Of a DNA stretch of 64,000 nucleotides, positions 2,777 to 42,821 are shown piece after piece (within the stretch, counting starts at the first letter, position 1; each line of letters begins with the position of its first letter). A program made the position numbers and the translations under genes. The DNA is from Deltaproteobacteria bacterium. GTDB taxonomy: Bacteria; Myxococcota; Myxococcia; Myxococcales; SZAS-1. Below the pieces are notes generated by a model. The model saw only the letters and a list, made by a program, of their open reading frames with translations. It did no database searches and was not told where the DNA came from. The DNA lies in the NCBI GenBank assembly GCA_018266075.1, contig JAFEBB010000002.1, positions 1 to 64,000 on the forward strand, read 5' to 3'.

Positions 2777-4150
2777 ATGGGTGTGGTCCGACGGCCCGGC
2801 ACCAAGAGGCTCTACTTCCGCTTCAAGGACGGCGAGGGCGCCTGGAAGACCCAGCCCTCGGAGTACGTCATCGGCCAGGAGAAGCTCGCCAAGGCGGCGT
2901 TCCAGATCGCCGAAGCTGCGGCTGCGGCCGGGCGTACGCCAGCCTTGCTCATGGGCGGCGCGACCAGGCTCGCCGCCTACGTCGAGCACTGGTGCGAGGA
3001 CCGCAAGAAGCGCGAGGTCTCGTCGGCGCGCGTCGAGCGCACGCACCTGGAAATGCATGTCGTGCCCGTGCTCGGCGCGATGAAGCTTCAGGACATCGAC
3101 CGCCTGGCGATCGAGGACCTGGTGCAGAAGCTGCGGAAGAAGCCGCGAGCGCCCAAGTCTGCAGCCGAGAAGAAGGGCGAGGTGCAGGTCTCTGAGCCGC
3201 TGGCCAACCGCACCGTGCGCAACATCTATGGCACCCTCCACGGGATGATGGAGAAGGCCGTGGCCGAAAGGCTGATCTCGGCCAACCCATGCACGCTGGG
3301 GAAGGGCTACTTGCCGCCCAAGAAGGACAAGGACCCCACGTTCCGCCGCCGAGCGGTCTTCGCGCGCGCCGAGCTGGAGCAGCTCCTCTCCGACCAGTGC
3401 ATCCCCGAGCACCGCCGCGTGACCTACGCGATGCTGTTCCTCACCGGCATGAGGCCGGGTGAGCTGATCGCCTTGAGGTGGCGCGACCACGAGGACGACG
3501 CCGAGCCGCTCGGGCGGCTGGTGGTCGCCAAGGCCTACTCGCGCACGCTCAAGAAGGTGAAGGGCACCAAGACCGGCGTCGACCGCGAGATACCGGTGCA
3601 CCCGACGCTCGCGAAGGTGCTCAGAGCGTGGAAGCTGGAGGGCTGGGAACGCCATCACGGCGCCAAGCCCCAGCTCGACGATCTGGTCATGCCCGGCCCG
3701 GAGGGCCAGCAGCTCAGCCCGGACCACCTCTATCGGTTCATGCAGCTGGACCTGGCCGCGGTGGGCTTGAGGCGGCGGCGGCTCTACGACTCCCGCCGCA
3801 CGTTCACGAGCCTGGCGATCGGCAGCGGCGCGAGCAAGGACGTGCTGCGCTGGATCACCCACGGGGTGAGCCGGGACATCCTCGACGAGTACACCACGGT
3901 GCCCTGGCCCGACCTGTGCGCTGCGGTGCTCTGCATCAAGGCCGAGTTGTCCGAAGGCCGCATGCCGGACTCGCAACGGCAGGAGAACCCAGGTCCTCAG
4001 AAATCAGCCGTGCAAGCCGCCGTGCAAGTCACGGACGACGAAAACAAAAAGGCCCCAGGTTTCAACAACCTGGGGCCCGAAGTTCTGGTGAGCGCGGAAG
4101 GAATCGAACCTTCAACCTATGGATTAAGAGTCCATTGCTCTGCCAATTGA
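2777..4150 (+). CDS. Tyrosine-type site-specific integrase, C-terminus overlapping tRNA-Lys
   Basis: A 457-residue phage/ICE-type tyrosine recombinase. The N-terminal part (about 1-65) is an arm-binding-like domain, followed by a SAM-like core-binding domain (about 66-180) and a catalytic domain (about 195-390). Visible catalytic elements are the box I arginine (TGMRPGELIALRWRD), the hairpin lysine (KGTKTGVDREIPVHP), the second box (YDSRRTFTS), the histidine in WITHGVSRD and the tyrosine nucleophile in DEYTTV. The usual HxxR histidine is replaced by Tyr (YDSR). About 70 residues follow the nucleophile. The last of these are encoded antisense to the tRNA terminator and the 3' half of tRNA-Lys, and the stop TGA (4148-4150) lies in the tRNA. 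This marks the element's right boundary and the probable attachment site. Confidence 0.92.
   Translation: MGVVRRPGTKRLYFRFKDGEGAWKTQPSEYVIGQEKLAKAAFQIAEAAAAAGRTPALLMGGATRLAAYVEHWCEDRKKREVSSARVERTHLEMHVVPVLGAMKLQDIDRLAIEDLVQKLRKKPRAPKSAAEKKGEVQVSEPLANRTVRNIYGTLHGMMEKAVAERLISANPCTLGKGYLPPKKDKDPTFRRRAVFARAELEQLLSDQCIPEHRRVTYAMLFLTGMRPGELIALRWRDHEDDAEPLGRLVVAKAYSRTLKKVKGTKTGVDREIPVHPTLAKVLRAWKLEGWERHHGAKPQLDDLVMPGPEGQQLSPDHLYRFMQLDLAAVGLRRRRLYDSRRTFTSLAIGSGASKDVLRWITHGVSRDILDEYTTVPWPDLCAAVLCIKAELSEGRMPDSQRQENPGPQKSAVQAAVQVTDDENKKAPGFNNLGPEVLVSAEGIEPSTYGLRVHCSAN
4041..4077 (-). terminator. Rho-independent terminator of tRNA-Lys
   Basis: A perfect 11-bp stem (GGCCCCAGGTT at 4051-4061 paired with 4067-4077) with a 5-base loop. 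On the minus strand it is followed by TTTTTGTTTT (complement of 4041-4050). It begins nine bases after the CCA end of the minus-strand tRNA and so terminates that transcript. It lies inside the integrase reading frame. Confidence 0.9.
4086..4150. other. Putative attachment site (element/chromosome junction) in the tRNA-Lys 3' half
   Basis: Integrases of this class usually recombine within the anticodon or T-arm of a tRNA and rebuild its 3' end. Here the integrase frame runs into the tRNA, placing the crossover in about this interval. I find no second copy of the tRNA 3' segment in the window, so the other junction must lie beyond the left edge. The exact core cannot be set from one end. Confidence 0.4.
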
Positions 4151-4161
4151 GCTACGCGCCC
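4086..4161 (-). tRNA. tRNA-Lys (anticodon CTT)
   Basis: Read on the minus strand this folds as a complete cloverleaf: acceptor GGGCGCG pairing with CGCGCTC, D-arm TAGCTCAATTGGCAGAGC, anticodon stem ATGGA/TCCAT around loop CTCTTAA (anticodon CTT, reads AAG), T-arm with GGTTCGATTCC, and an encoded CCA end at 4086-4088. A strong terminator follows. An integrase gene is convergent with it and overlaps its 3' half, so this is the probable integration target of the element to the left. Confidence 0.95.
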
Positions 4162-4216: not shown

Positions 4217-5290
4217 TCAACGGCGATCCGCGGCCGCCACGGTGAACGACGCGCCCCGGGCCAGGGCCTGACGCACCTCGGGCAGCACCCCGGCCGGGCC
4301 GGCGACCACCAGCAGCGCCGTCCGGTCGTCGGGCAGGTGCACGGCCGTGGCGCTCGCCACCCGGCCTCCGCCCAGCGCGATCTCGTACGCCACCTGACCG
4401 GAGCCGGGCAGCCCGCGCAGCTCGTCGTGCACCAGCACCGCCTCGCCGCCCTCGGACGCGAGCAGCTCCGAGGCCGCCTCGGCGAGCTTGCCCGGCGTGA
4501 TCTGGTTCCGCGCGGCCAGGCTCCAGAAGCCGCCCACCGCGCGCGCCGGATCGGCGAACGCGAACGTCTGCAGGCGGCCATCCATGCCCTGGATGGGCAA
4601 GTAGACGAGCAGCTGCTCCGGGCGCTGCAGGAGCTCGAAGCCGCTCGGGAGCTGGAGCGCGAGCCCCGGGCCGGTGGCGTGGGGGCCGGGCTGGTTTCGA
4701 CGCAGCACGCGCACCGTCCCTGCGAAGGTGCACAGCCCGAGCACCGCCACCAGCACCAGGCTGCGTCGCCGCGGGCCGGTGGCGCCGCTCACGCCCGCGA
4801 GCACGCCCAGCGGCAGGATGGCCACGGAGATGATGGGAAACGAGGGCAGGGCGTGCCGGCCGAGCCAGAGCCAGGTGGCGGTCTGCAGCGGCGCGGAGAC
4901 GATGACCAGCGGCCGCGCGAAGCCCGGCGCGACCAGCAGCGCCAGCGCGAGCCCGAGGTTGGCGACGCCGAGCACCGCGAAGCCGGCGGGCTCCGGGCCC
5001 ATGGGTACGGCGCCGGTGGCGGAGGCCAGCGCGAGCGCGCCCAGGGCGCCGAGCGCGGCCACCATCGTGCCCGGGTGGACCTCGGCGTCGGAGGTGAGCA
5101 GGTCGAGGCCGCCGATGCGCGTTCCGAACTCGGCGTCGACGGGCGCTTGCTCGCGGTCGTTGTGCCGCAAGAGCCCGCTCGTGACCTTGAACGCGCGCAT
5201 GCACTTCGGACAGCGTTCTTCTTCGGCGGCGATCGGCGAGTGCCCGCAGTACGGACACGCCGTCTCGACCGTGTAGGCGCGCTTGGCCAC
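4217..5290 (-). CDS. Zinc-ribbon multi-pass membrane protein
   Basis: A 357-residue protein of unknown function, start GTG 5290. Residues 13-30 form a zinc ribbon (CPYCGHSPI ... CPKCMRAF). A cytoplasmic linker follows, then about four hydrophobic helices between residues 80 and 210 (VAALGALGALALASATGA, FAVLGVANLGLALALLVA and ISVAILPLGVLAGVSG among them). The last 150 residues form a globular domain with alternating strands (LALQLPSGFELL, GEAVLVHDELRGLPGSG, DRTALLVVAGPAG), which may sit on the far side of the membrane. It is first after the tRNA, convergent with the integrase, and separated from the next minus-strand gene by 79 bases holding seven-base repeats. Confidence 0.75.
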   Translation of the reverse strand: MAKRAYTVETACPYCGHSPIAAEEERCPKCMRAFKVTSGLLRHNDREQAPVDAEFGTRIGGLDLLTSDAEVHPGTMVAALGALGALALASATGAVPMGPEPAGFAVLGVANLGLALALLVAPGFARPLVIVSAPLQTATWLWLGRHALPSFPIISVAILPLGVLAGVSGATGPRRRSLVLVAVLGLCTFAGTVRVLRRNQPGPHATGPGLALQLPSGFELLQRPEQLLVYLPIQGMDGRLQTFAFADPARAVGGFWSLAARNQITPGKLAEAASELLASEGGEAVLVHDELRGLPGSGQVAYEIALGGGRVASATAVHLPDDRTALLVVAGPAGVLPEVRQALARGASFTVAAADRR

Positions 5291-36056: not shown

Positions 36057-36590
36057 ATGGAGACCGACGAAGAGCTCTTTCGGCGCGCGCGGCAGGGCGA
36101 CCTGGCCGCGTTCGACCAGCTCTACCTCCGCCACGAGCGGCGGCTGTTCGGCTTCATCCTCCGGCTGCTCGGCGATCGCGCCGACGCCGAAGAGATCTTC
36201 CACGACGTGTTCCTCTCCGCGTTCAAGGCGCGGCAGGTGCAATTGGAGGAGGCCCGCTTTGCCGCGTGGATCTACCGCATCGCCCGCAACGCCTGCGCCA
36301 ACAAGGTGCGCAGCCGCCGCCGCGGCGCGAACGCGCTCTTCAAGCTGGGCGAGGAAGAGCCGCCGGTGGCCAGCGCCGAGGACCTCTTGCGCGAAGAGCA
36401 GCGAACTTTGGCCGTCGCGAGCGCCGTCGAGAAGCTGCCCCAGACGCTGGCCAGCGTGTTCCACCTGCGCACGTCGGGGTTGTCGTATGAGGACATCGCC
36501 GCCGCGCTGGGTATCCCCATCGGCACCGTGAAGTCGCGCATGCATGCGCTCGTGCAGCACCTGCGAGGAGAGCTGGACCATGACCTGTGA
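36057..36590 (+). CDS. ECF-type RNA polymerase sigma factor
   Basis: A 177-residue sigma-70 family protein. Region 2 (about 8-80) reads LFRRARQGDLAAFDQLYLRH, FILRLLGDRADAEEIFHDVF and ARFAAWIYRIARNACANKVR. Region 4 (about 115-170) reads VEKLPQTLASVFHLRTSGLS and IAAALGIPIGTVKSRMHALV. Regions 1 and 3 are absent, as in ECF sigmas. The stop overlaps the anti-sigma gene by 11 bases. No Shine-Dalgarno is seen, and a GTTATC hexamer lies 11 bases before the ATG, so the message may be leaderless. It probably directs an envelope-stress or similar regulon including its own operon. Confidence 0.93.
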   Translation: METDEELFRRARQGDLAAFDQLYLRHERRLFGFILRLLGDRADAEEIFHDVFLSAFKARQVQLEEARFAAWIYRIARNACANKVRSRRRGANALFKLGEEEPPVASAEDLLREEQRTLAVASAVEKLPQTLASVFHLRTSGLSYEDIAAALGIPIGTVKSRMHALVQHLRGELDHDL

Positions 36591-36987
36591 AGCCATCAAG
36601 CCCGAGCTCGTGGGCTACCACCTGGGCGCGCTGGATCTCGTCTCGCGCGACGGCATCGACTCGCACCTGCTCCGTTGCAAGGGCTGCCTGACGCGGTACT
36701 TCGAGGTGAAGCGCGCGCTCGAGGACGGCCAGCTCCCCGACGAGCTGCCCTCGCCGGCGCTGCGTGCGCGCGTGCGCGCGGACGTGGCCGCCACCGTGGC
36801 CCCACAGCCCAGGCGCATCCGGGCGGCGTACGTGGTGGGCCTGGCCGCGGCGGCCGCGGCGCTCTTCGTCTTCGCCTTCGAGCTTGGCGCGGGGAAGCTG
36901 CACCTCAAGCCCGCGCCCAGCCCCACGCAAACCGAGGCCCCGCTGATCGACGCGCAGCAGGCCGACACCAGCTTGAAGGTCCTGTGA
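36580..36987 (+). CDS. Zinc-binding transmembrane anti-sigma factor
   Basis: A 135-residue protein whose ATG overlaps the sigma gene by 11 bases. The N-terminal cytoplasmic part has the ZAS/zf-HC2 signature HxxxCxxC (SHLLRCKGC, about residues 28-36) after a helix YHLGALDLVSRDGIDSH. One membrane helix follows at about 85-105 (YVVGLAAAAAALFVFAFELG), then a short Pro/Thr-rich periplasmic tail. This matches membrane-anchored anti-sigma factors that hold the ECF sigma until a signal releases it. The co-transcribed S41 protease is a candidate for processing the tail. Confidence 0.88.
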   Translation: MTCEAIKPELVGYHLGALDLVSRDGIDSHLLRCKGCLTRYFEVKRALEDGQLPDELPSPALRARVRADVAATVAPQPRRIRAAYVVGLAAAAAALFVFAFELGAGKLHLKPAPSPTQTEAPLIDAQQADTSLKVL

Positions 36988-37018
36988 TCCGGACCGCGAC
37001 TTTTCTGGAGACGCAACG

Positions 37019-38239
37019 ATGAACCGAACCCGAATTCCCCTCGCGCTCGCGGCCCTGGCGCTCTGCTTCGCCGGGCCGTCGCACGCCAGCGACGTGGGCG
37101 AGTACGAGGACTGGGCGGGCCAGCCACACGAGCCCTTCACCCACGGCGAGGAGTCGCTGCGCCAGATCCGCGAGCACCTCCTGCGCGAGTACTACCGCTC
37201 GGACATCACCGAAGAGGACCTCGATCGGGCCGCCGCCCAGGGCATGCTCAGCTTCATCGACGCCAAGACCAAAGGCTGGAACAAGCTGGTCTCGCCCGCG
37301 GAGTACAGCGAGCTGCAGACGGATCTGAAGGGCCAGCTCGTCGGCATCGGCGTGCTCATCGACTTCGACGCGGTCACCGGCGTGGTCGACGTGAACGGCA
37401 TCATCCCCCACTCGCCAGCGGCCGCGGCCGACGTGCGCGAGGGCGACAAGATCCTCGCGGTGGACGGTCGCGTCTTCAAAGGCCTCACCATCCGCGACAT
37501 GGCCTACGCGATGCGCGGCAAGGAGGGCACCCAGGTGCACCTCAACATCCTCCGCGACGCCAACGTGATCGAGAAGACCATCACCCGCGCGCGCATCACC
37601 TACGACCCGGTGATGAGCATGATGCTCCCCGACGGCATCCTCTATCTGCAGATCGCAGCCTTCGTGGACACCACGCCCGCCGGCGTGCGCGCCGCGCTGG
37701 ACCAGGCCGCCAAGGGGCACGTGCGCGGCATCGTGGTGGACCTGCGCGACAACGCCGGCGGCATCCTGGACAGCGCCATCGACACCGCGCAGCTCTTCGT
37801 GCCCAGGGGCAAGCTCATCGCCCAGGTGCAGAAGCGCGGCAACAAGGTGGACAAGCTGGCCTCCAAGGCCGACCCCATCGCGCCCGCGGTGCCGGTGGCG
37901 GTGCTCATCAACGGCGACTCGAAGTCGTCGGCGGAGCTCATGGCCGCGGCTCTGCGCGCGAACCTCACCGCGCCGCTCATCGGCCAGAAGACCTTCGGCA
38001 AGTGGAGCGTACAGAGCCTGGAGGAGCTGCCGAACAAGTACGTCATGAAGTACACGGTCGGCCTCCTCGAGGACCCCGCGGGCAGGAGCTACGAGGGCGA
38101 GGGCGTGCCGCCCGACATCGAGGTGCCCATGGACAGCAAGCTCCTCGACCGGGCCCAGCGCGAGAAGGCCGCGGACGGCCGGCTCGCCGCGGATGTGCAG
38201 CTCCGGGCTGCGTACAACCTGCTCCGGCTGCGCAAGTAA
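37019..38239 (+). CDS. Exported S41-family C-terminal processing peptidase (CtpA-like)
   Basis: A 406-residue protease with a signal peptide (MNRTRIPLALAALALCFAGPSHA). Residues about 100-180 form a PDZ domain (GIGVLIDFDAVTGVVDVNGI, SPAAAADVREGDKILAVDGR). The catalytic domain follows: ILYLQIAAFVDTTPAGVRAA, VDLRDNAGGILDSAI, the serine nucleophile in NGDSKSSAELMAAAL, and the lysine base in IGQKTFGKWSVQ. Family members cleave near C-termini in the periplasm. It is third in the operon with the ECF sigma and anti-sigma, 31 bases after the latter, suggesting a role in the stress response or in cleaving the anti-sigma factor. Confidence 0.92.
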   Translation: MNRTRIPLALAALALCFAGPSHASDVGEYEDWAGQPHEPFTHGEESLRQIREHLLREYYRSDITEEDLDRAAAQGMLSFIDAKTKGWNKLVSPAEYSELQTDLKGQLVGIGVLIDFDAVTGVVDVNGIIPHSPAAAADVREGDKILAVDGRVFKGLTIRDMAYAMRGKEGTQVHLNILRDANVIEKTITRARITYDPVMSMMLPDGILYLQIAAFVDTTPAGVRAALDQAAKGHVRGIVVDLRDNAGGILDSAIDTAQLFVPRGKLIAQVQKRGNKVDKLASKADPIAPAVPVAVLINGDSKSSAELMAAALRANLTAPLIGQKTFGKWSVQSLEELPNKYVMKYTVGLLEDPAGRSYEGEGVPPDIEVPMDSKLLDRAQREKAADGRLAADVQLRAAYNLLRLRK

Positions 38240-41072: not shown

Positions 41073-42086
41073 TTAAGCGGTCTTCACCACGATCTTGCCG
41101 AAGTGTGCGCCCGAGCCCATGTGCTCGAACGCCGCGACCGCGTCCGCAAACGGAAAGACCCGATCGATGACCGGCTTGAGCTTGTGCAGCGCGATGGCGC
41201 GGCACATGGCCTCGGCGCTCTCGCGGCTGCCGACGAGGATCCCCTGCACGCGCACGTTCTGCATGAGGATGGGGATGAGGTTCACCTGCGCGGCGTTGCC
41301 GGTGAGCTGGCCGATGACGGAGATCGTCCCCGCCACGCGAATGGCCTTCAGCGAGCGCTCGAAGGTGCCCGCGCCGCCCACCTCGACGATCTGGTTGGGG
41401 CCCAGGCCGTCGGTGAGCGCGCGCGCGGCCTTGTCCCAGTCGGCGTTAACCGAATAGTTAATGCCTTCGTCGGCGCCGAGTGTCTTTGCGCGCGCGAGCT
41501 TGTCGTCCTTGGACGAGGTGATGATCGCGCGCAGGCCGAGGAGCTTGGCGAACTGGAGCGCGAAGATGCTCACCCCGCCGGTGCCCTGGAGCAGCACGGT
41601 GTCGCCGGCCTTGCAGCTGCCGTAGGTGACGAGCGCGCTCCACGCCGTGGCCGCAGCGCAGGGCAGGGTGGCGGCCTCCTCGTCGGTGAGGTGGTCGGGG
41701 GTTCGAACCACGCCGTCTTCGTGGAGCATCATCGTGTCGCCGAGCGCGCCGTCGAGCGGGCCGCCGAGCGTGGTGCGCAGCTTGTCGCGCGTCGGCTCGC
41801 CGGAGATCCAGCCTTGGCTGAACGCGCCGAAGCAGCGGTCGCCCACCTTCACCCGCGTCACGCCCGGGCCCACCGCGTCCACGACGCCCGCGCCGTCGGA
41901 GCAGGGGATGAGCGGCAGCTTCTGCTTGGGGTTGTAGAAGCCGCGCACCATCAACAGGTCACGGTAGTTGAGCGACGCGGCCTTCACCCGCAGCCGCACC
42001 TGGAACGGTCCTGGCGTGGGATCGGGCCGCTCGGCGACCTTCAGGTTCTCGAGGCCGAAGCCGTTCTGGATCTCGTAGGCGCGCAT
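41073..42086 (-). CDS. MDR-family NAD(P)-dependent alcohol dehydrogenase / quinone oxidoreductase
   Basis: A 337-residue protein started at ATG 42086 (MRAYEIQNGFGLENLKVAER). It has the GroES-like domain (about 25-130: VKAASLNYRDLLMVRGFYNP, LIPCSDGAGVVDAVGPGV, DRCFGAFSQGWISGEP) and a Rossmann domain (AATLPCAAATAWSALV, GDTVLLQGTGGVSIFALQFA). It lacks the structural-zinc cysteine cluster, so it belongs to the zinc-independent quinone-oxidoreductase-like branch. The substrate is unknown. The promoter region ahead of it carries the triple 27-28 bp repeat shared with the divergent ankyrin gene. Confidence 0.9.
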   Translation of the reverse strand: MRAYEIQNGFGLENLKVAERPDPTPGPFQVRLRVKAASLNYRDLLMVRGFYNPKQKLPLIPCSDGAGVVDAVGPGVTRVKVGDRCFGAFSQGWISGEPTRDKLRTTLGGPLDGALGDTMMLHEDGVVRTPDHLTDEEAATLPCAAATAWSALVTYGSCKAGDTVLLQGTGGVSIFALQFAKLLGLRAIITSSKDDKLARAKTLGADEGINYSVNADWDKAARALTDGLGPNQIVEVGGAGTFERSLKAIRVAGTISVIGQLTGNAAQVNLIPILMQNVRVQGILVGSRESAEAMCRAIALHKLKPVIDRVFPFADAVAAFEHMGSGAHFGKIVVKTA

Positions 42087-42103
42087 GGGCCTTTCTAGAC
42101 CGA

Positions 42104-42207
42104 GAGAACGAGCGGCGCCGGAAAAATCAAGCGGCCGCCGCGAGAACGAGCGCGCCGGACAAATCAAGGCCCCAAGCTGAGAGAACCGTCGTGCACCAGG
42201 AATCAAG
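42104..42207. repeat. Three direct repeats of a 27-28 bp unit in a divergent promoter
   Basis: Units start at 42104, 42142 and 42181 (period 38-39 bp). Each begins GAGAAC and ends AATCAAG with 14-15 bases between. Units 1 and 2 also share GAGCG(G)CGCCGGA; unit 3 is more diverged inside. A 13-base inverted copy of the unit core, GATTTTTCCGGCG, lies at 42219-42231. The array sits between the oxidoreductase start (42086) and the ankyrin gene start (42279). This looks like binding sites for a shared regulator. Confidence 0.7.
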
Positions 42208-42278
42208 TCGGGCCGCGCGATTTTTCCGGCGATCGGGCTGGCTAGCATGGGTTCCGTACCAGGGAAGGGGAGAACGCA

Positions 42279-42821
42279 ATGCCCAGCATCCGGAAGGCCG
42301 GAGTCCGGACCATCTCGCCGGTCCTTGCAGCCGTGTTCGTCGACGACGCCAAGGCGCTCCGCGTGGCCATCGACAAGGGCGAGCCCATCGACGAGCGCGA
42401 CGGCGAGGGGCGCACGCCGCTCTGCCACGCGCTCGTGGACGGCCGCACCTCGCTCGTTCGCGCGCTGCTCGCCGCCGGCGCCGACCCGAACGCCATCGAC
42501 GGCAAGGGCGAGACGCCGCTGCACCTCGCCGTGCGCCACCACCGCGGCAACGAGGCGCGGCTGCTCTTGCAGCGCGGCGCGCTCGTCGACGCCCAGGACG
42601 GCAATGGCAACACCCCGCTGTGGCGCGCGGTGTTCGCGCACCAGGGCAACGAGGAGCTCATCTCGTTGCTCCTCGAGAATGGCGCCAGCCCGGATCGCGC
42701 GAACCGCGACGGCGTCTCGCCGCGCTCACTGGCCGAGTCGGTGGCCGACCCCGAGGTGCGCCACCTCTTCGACCAGGACCTCGCCATGGTTCCGGCGTTC
42801 CCGGCCAAGAGGAAGCGCTAA
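42279..42821 (+). CDS. Ankyrin-repeat protein
   Basis: A 180-residue cytoplasmic protein with no signal peptide. There are about four ankyrin repeats from residue 17 to 160: SPVLAAVFVDDAKALRVAID, GEGRTPLCHALVDGRTSLVR, GKGETPLHLAVRHHRGNEAR and GNGNTPLWRAVFAHQGNEEL, each with the xG-x-TPL-x-x-A pattern and following LLxxGAxxDxxxxxG turns. It ends in a basic tail (FPAKRKR). Ankyrin repeats serve protein binding; the partner is unknown. It is divergent from the oxidoreductase, sharing the repeat array as its promoter region. Confidence 0.9.
   Translation: MPSIRKAGVRTISPVLAAVFVDDAKALRVAIDKGEPIDERDGEGRTPLCHALVDGRTSLVRALLAAGADPNAIDGKGETPLHLAVRHHRGNEARLLLQRGALVDAQDGNGNTPLWRAVFAHQGNEELISLLLENGASPDRANRDGVSPRSLAESVADPEVRHLFDQDLAMVPAFPAKRKR

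Follow-up and report, generated by a model that had tools for sequence, protein, structure and literature searches.

The gap between two divergently oriented genes contains three direct copies of a bipartite sequence, in which the blocks GAGAAC and AATCAAG are separated by 14 or 15 bases. The threefold array is genuine and exceeds what is expected by chance and, as far as can be seen, its motif is private to the genome of the window (the whole 64-kb stretch of DNA that was analyzed) among the bacterial genomes searched. Judged by its sequence, the array resembles an operator and is perhaps functional. The best explanation of the array is a locus-specific multi-site operator, a reading adopted tentatively, at slightly less than even confidence. 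The observations behind it are the units themselves, their excess over chance, the non-coding setting, the agreement of the end blocks, and the restriction of the motif to one locus in the bacterial genomes searched.

All three units are on the forward strand. Unit 1 (positions 42104–42131, 28 bp) has the organization GAGAAC-N15-AATCAAG. Unit 2 (42142–42168, 27 bp, GAGAAC-N14-AATCAAG) shares 26 of 27 positions with unit 1 once a single base of the latter is left out of the alignment. Unit 3 (42181–42207, 27 bp) also has the form GAGAAC-N14-AATCAAG, but its middle has diverged and matches that of unit 2 at five of 14 positions. The GAGAAC blocks start at 42104, 42142, and 42181, and the AATCAAG blocks at 42125, 42162, and 42201, giving inner gaps of 15, 14, and 14 bases and start-to-start spacings of 38 and 39 bp. 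The first-pass annotation described these three units, and all of its coordinates for them are correct. AATCAAG occurs four times on the two strands of the window. GAGAAC occurs a fourth time at 42270, not in register with the array and immediately 5′ of the start codon of the ankyrin-repeat gene.

The intergenic gap that contains the array spans positions 42087–42278 (192 bp) and has a GC content of 63%, compared with 69% for the window. It is flanked by a zinc-binding dehydrogenase or quinone-oxidoreductase-like gene (41073–42086, reverse strand; ADH_N and ADH_zinc_N domains), the start codon of which, at 42086, is 17 bases from unit 1, and by a gene for a 180-residue ankyrin-repeat protein (42279–42821, forward strand), which starts at 42279. 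The divergent arrangement proposed earlier for the two genes is thus confirmed. A long open frame on the reverse strand (41073–42641) spans the array, and the open reading frame caller therefore labels the array as coding. This assignment was rejected, because the GC content by codon position in the oxidoreductase frame is flat across the gap (0.65/0.63/0.61, compared with 0.67/0.47/0.93 within the gene), and because the alignments of the best protein relatives begin at residue 1, at position 42086. The flat profile is the reason why the gap is read as non-coding. The only −10-like hexamer of the form TANNNT in the gap, TAGCAT (42243–42248, forward strand), is a possible promoter element of the ankyrin-repeat gene; a promoter scan of the gap did not find a sigma-70 site. 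RNA folding of either strand was no better than that of shuffled sequences (z = −0.21 and −0.05), and thus does not favor a role as an RNA hairpin. The sole Rfam match of the window is a tRNA at 4089–4161.

The excess over chance was measured as the maximum number of non-overlapping copies of any bipartite word of 6+7 bases. When the 192-bp gap was dinucleotide-shuffled 5000 times, the maximum was one copy in 4703 shuffles, two in 297, and three in none, compared with three copies in the real gap. Shuffles of the whole window (n = 105) contained zero triples of a 6+7 bipartite word within 160 bases, and the best ungapped direct pair in the gap was reached by one of 300 shuffles. It could be argued that the array is a chance assembly of similar words picked from 64 kb by the first-pass annotation, since the blocks were selected after inspection, and a scan of this kind also detects just one further triple within the window, a 6+6 word of high GC content that lies at 4889, inside a called open reading frame. 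However, the outcomes of the gap and window shuffles (0/5000 and 0/105) and the concentration of three of the four AATCAAG occurrences of the window in the array make such an assembly extremely unlikely. The other triple, at 4889–5008, consists of the blocks CGGCGC and CCAGCG, repeated three times in a called coding region.

The repeat background of the genome was surveyed in the window and a further 400 kb of its genome, 464 kb in total, using words of 6+7, 7+6, and 6+6 bases. The scan identified 23 clusters including the array, most of them in called open reading frames and spaced by multiples of three. Four others were marked as non-coding: two in locus L119, which are GC-rich and repetitive in composition, and two tandem arrays of 21-bp units, L115:10936–11051 (contig G000:C1) and L128:10945–11061 (contig G000:C11). 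The latter two, on different contigs of the genome of the window, have the core CGCCAGTAACG in common in opposite orientations, and the paired-core pattern of CGCCAGTAACG was found at these two places only in the genome. A long array in L116 (8138–8899, contig G000:C2), with spacings that are multiples of 30 bp, is called coding and likely belongs to a repetitive protein. Non-coding repeats thus occur elsewhere in the genome, but both of those inspected, in L115 and L128, are regular, unlike the array.

The distribution of identity along the array bears on whether it could be a neutral local repeat without function, in which units 1 and 2 arose by recent duplication and unit 3 is a degraded copy of earlier origin. 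The near identity of units 1 and 2 is what a recent duplication would predict, but slippage would also have copied the spacers, which agree at only two of ten positions, compared with 26 of 27 in the units. Between units 2 and 3, the end blocks are identical at 13 of 13 positions and the remaining positions at eight of 26; unit 3 thus has both end blocks intact. Permutation of the match positions yielded p values for this clustering of approximately 0.0002 and 0.0075, which are optimistic, as are the Fisher values, because the block boundaries were set after the sequence had been viewed. Furthermore, the array was not reported by Tandem Repeats Finder at a minimum score of 30. The restriction of the array to its own genome and gap, the presence of other non-coding tandem arrays in the genome (two with 21-bp units in the 400 kb sampled), and a partial inverted copy suggestive of local rearrangement speak for a neutral origin, which is nevertheless considered somewhat unlikely. 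The sharp drop of identity at the unit edges, and its persistence in unit 3 chiefly at the end blocks, agree better with constraint acting on a bipartite site than with a tandem duplication that decays evenly.

The partial inverted copy (42211–42231, reverse strand) corresponds to the right half of unit 1 and its flank, and matches positions 42116–42136 at 19 of 21 bases. The 13-base inverted copy reported at 42219 by the first-pass annotation, GATTTTTCCGGCG, is present at 42219–42231, but it is weak evidence, because a pair of 19 out of 21 bases was equaled in four of 300 shuffles. The inverted pair extends beyond the edge of the unit and does not include GTTCTC. Its core, CGCCGGAAAAATC, has nine sites with at most one mismatch, three of them within the array. 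Reading of the six remaining sites revealed nothing connecting them; one (L075) looks intergenic. The inverted copy is mildly unusual and a weak addition to the triple.

The motif does not extend beyond this locus in the bacterial sequences searched. A search of the 7.84-Mb genome for GAGAAC-N14/15-AATCAAG, a check that the first-pass annotation had suggested, located three exact sites, each of them a unit of the array. A sequence profile derived from the units, with E values up to 10 and 150 of 677 first-look candidates scored, found the same three sites alone. The looser pattern AGAAC-N13-17-ATCAA has 31 sites in the genome; the 30 with assigned loci comprise the three of the array and 27 elsewhere, of which 24 are in called open reading frames, two are outside (L094 and L100), and one (L090) is unplaced. 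Two units in tandem were found in one of 195 genomes of the phylum, namely that of the window. The oxidoreductase has matches in 38 of 40 order-level genomes; in five of these the best match is 61–72% identical over nearly the full length, and the others are lower, many of them probably paralogues. The array was not seen by eye in the 350 bases beside ten oxidoreductase matches, a stretch that is upstream for the forward-strand loci only, which include four of the best five matches (L005–L008). A profile search of 35 whole oxidoreductase loci, on both strands with flanks of 1.3–4 kb and default filters, gave no match. For the ankyrin-repeat protein, the matches elsewhere, in 22 of the 40 genomes, are all partial and of ankyrin type. 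A scan of genome contigs identified six relatives of the oxidoreductase with 54–66% identity, all from other phyla and none of them close. The motif was not matched in plasmids, and no description of it was found in the literature searched. Among viral contigs, 27 stretches contain exact matches to two units in tandem; a rough estimate from the assumed size of the collection puts the number expected by chance at about ten, and no conclusion is drawn from these stretches.

The centers of GAGAAC and AATCAAG in each unit are 20.5–21.5 bp apart, corresponding to 1.95–2.05 helical turns, so that a single protein or dimer could contact both blocks from one side of the DNA. In contrast, the period between units corresponds to 3.6 and 3.7 turns rather than a whole number, and neighboring units therefore point to different sides of the helix. 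On phasing, therefore, the cooperativity argument of the first-pass annotation fails, and the 38–39 bp period lends no support to its "arrangement expected for cooperative binding". What stands of the earlier proposal is a repeated candidate binding site, the likeliest reading given the excess over chance, the non-coding gap, and the retention of the end blocks next to differing middles and spacers.

We infer protein binding, the identity of the binder, and the direction of control as follows. The array would present one bipartite protein-binding site, GAGAAC plus AATCAAG, three times over in a control region common to the oxidoreductase and ankyrin-repeat genes. A dimeric or two-headed regulator may touch both blocks of one unit on the same face of the helix, and several bound copies would increase occupancy and thereby control one or both of the divergent genes. 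In the simplest case they would repress the oxidoreductase, with its start codon 17 bases from unit 1. Several observations oppose the operator reading. The genome contains no second site, and thus no regulon that would back the motif. A rigid dimer would not easily accommodate the variable gap within units (15, 14, and 14 bases), and the period between units is not a whole number of turns. The Pfam scan of 24 proteins of the window recognized no DNA-binding regulator besides an ECF-type sigma factor approximately 5.5 kb away. The fuller proposal, that the three copies form a novel bipartite operator through which a lineage-specific regulator or an ECF sigma factor couples the oxidoreductase to the ankyrin-repeat protein, is possible but rather doubtful.

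A more specific rival to the operator reading is that each unit is an ECF-type sigma promoter directed toward the ankyrin-repeat gene, with GAAC as the −35 and TCAA as the −10 element. The pattern GAAC-N16/17-TCAA is present on the forward strand in all three units and nowhere else in the gap. A spacer that wobbles between 16 and 17 bases is normal for sigma factors, the gap has no detected sigma-70 promoter, and an ECF-type sigma factor is encoded in the same window. The units resemble ECF promoters in their AAC-type upstream and TC-type downstream blocks, 16–17 bases apart, but differ in that there are three in a row at 38-bp intervals, an odd arrangement for full promoters, and in the absence of GGAAC; the stricter pattern GGAAC-N13-18-[CG]TC is unmatched in the gap. 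ECF promoters usually constitute a small regulon that includes the promoter of the sigma gene itself, but the genome has no further profile match, and the motif is not evident by eye upstream of the sigma gene. Promoters of this type are an unlikely explanation of the array. The sigma factor gene (36057–36590, forward strand; Sigma70_r2 and Sigma70_r4_2) is overlapped by a 147-residue open reading frame without a Pfam match, which has a cysteine pair, noted by eye, and is possibly an anti-sigma factor. It is followed by a gene for an S41/PDZ peptidase, and the region 36057–38239 (forward strand) is a possible stress-response cluster.

Binding of a nucleoid protein such as IHF, which would bend the control region, is very unlikely. 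The IHF consensus includes the half-site WATCAR, which AATCAA fits in all three units, but the TTR half is missing from each of them, the full consensus WATCARNNNNTTR has zero matches on both strands of the gap, and the GAGAAC block is left unexplained. Among myxobacterial systems, the CarH/CarA operators consist of multiple direct repeats arranged in tandem within a control region; they are predicted to act on divergent promoters in some species, and their design differs among species (PMC9304148). The array is similar in its multiple direct repeats and position in a control region, but the CarH repeats described there are 11 bp long, placed back to back, and contain TnnACA (PMC9304148), whereas the period of the array is 38–39 bp and TnnACA is absent from both strands of the gap. 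A CarH-type direct-repeat operator was rejected on these two grounds, and the array is assigned to no known operator family.

Direct-repeat operators are of a well-known kind, and operator status of the array would alter no general view. The case illustrates that, when no relatives are at hand for comparison, a private repeat can be judged well enough to exclude chance almost entirely and to disfavor simple tandem duplication, but not to demonstrate function. If the array is an operator, it would provide a handle for fishing out the regulator in a bacterial family represented by a single genome in the collection.
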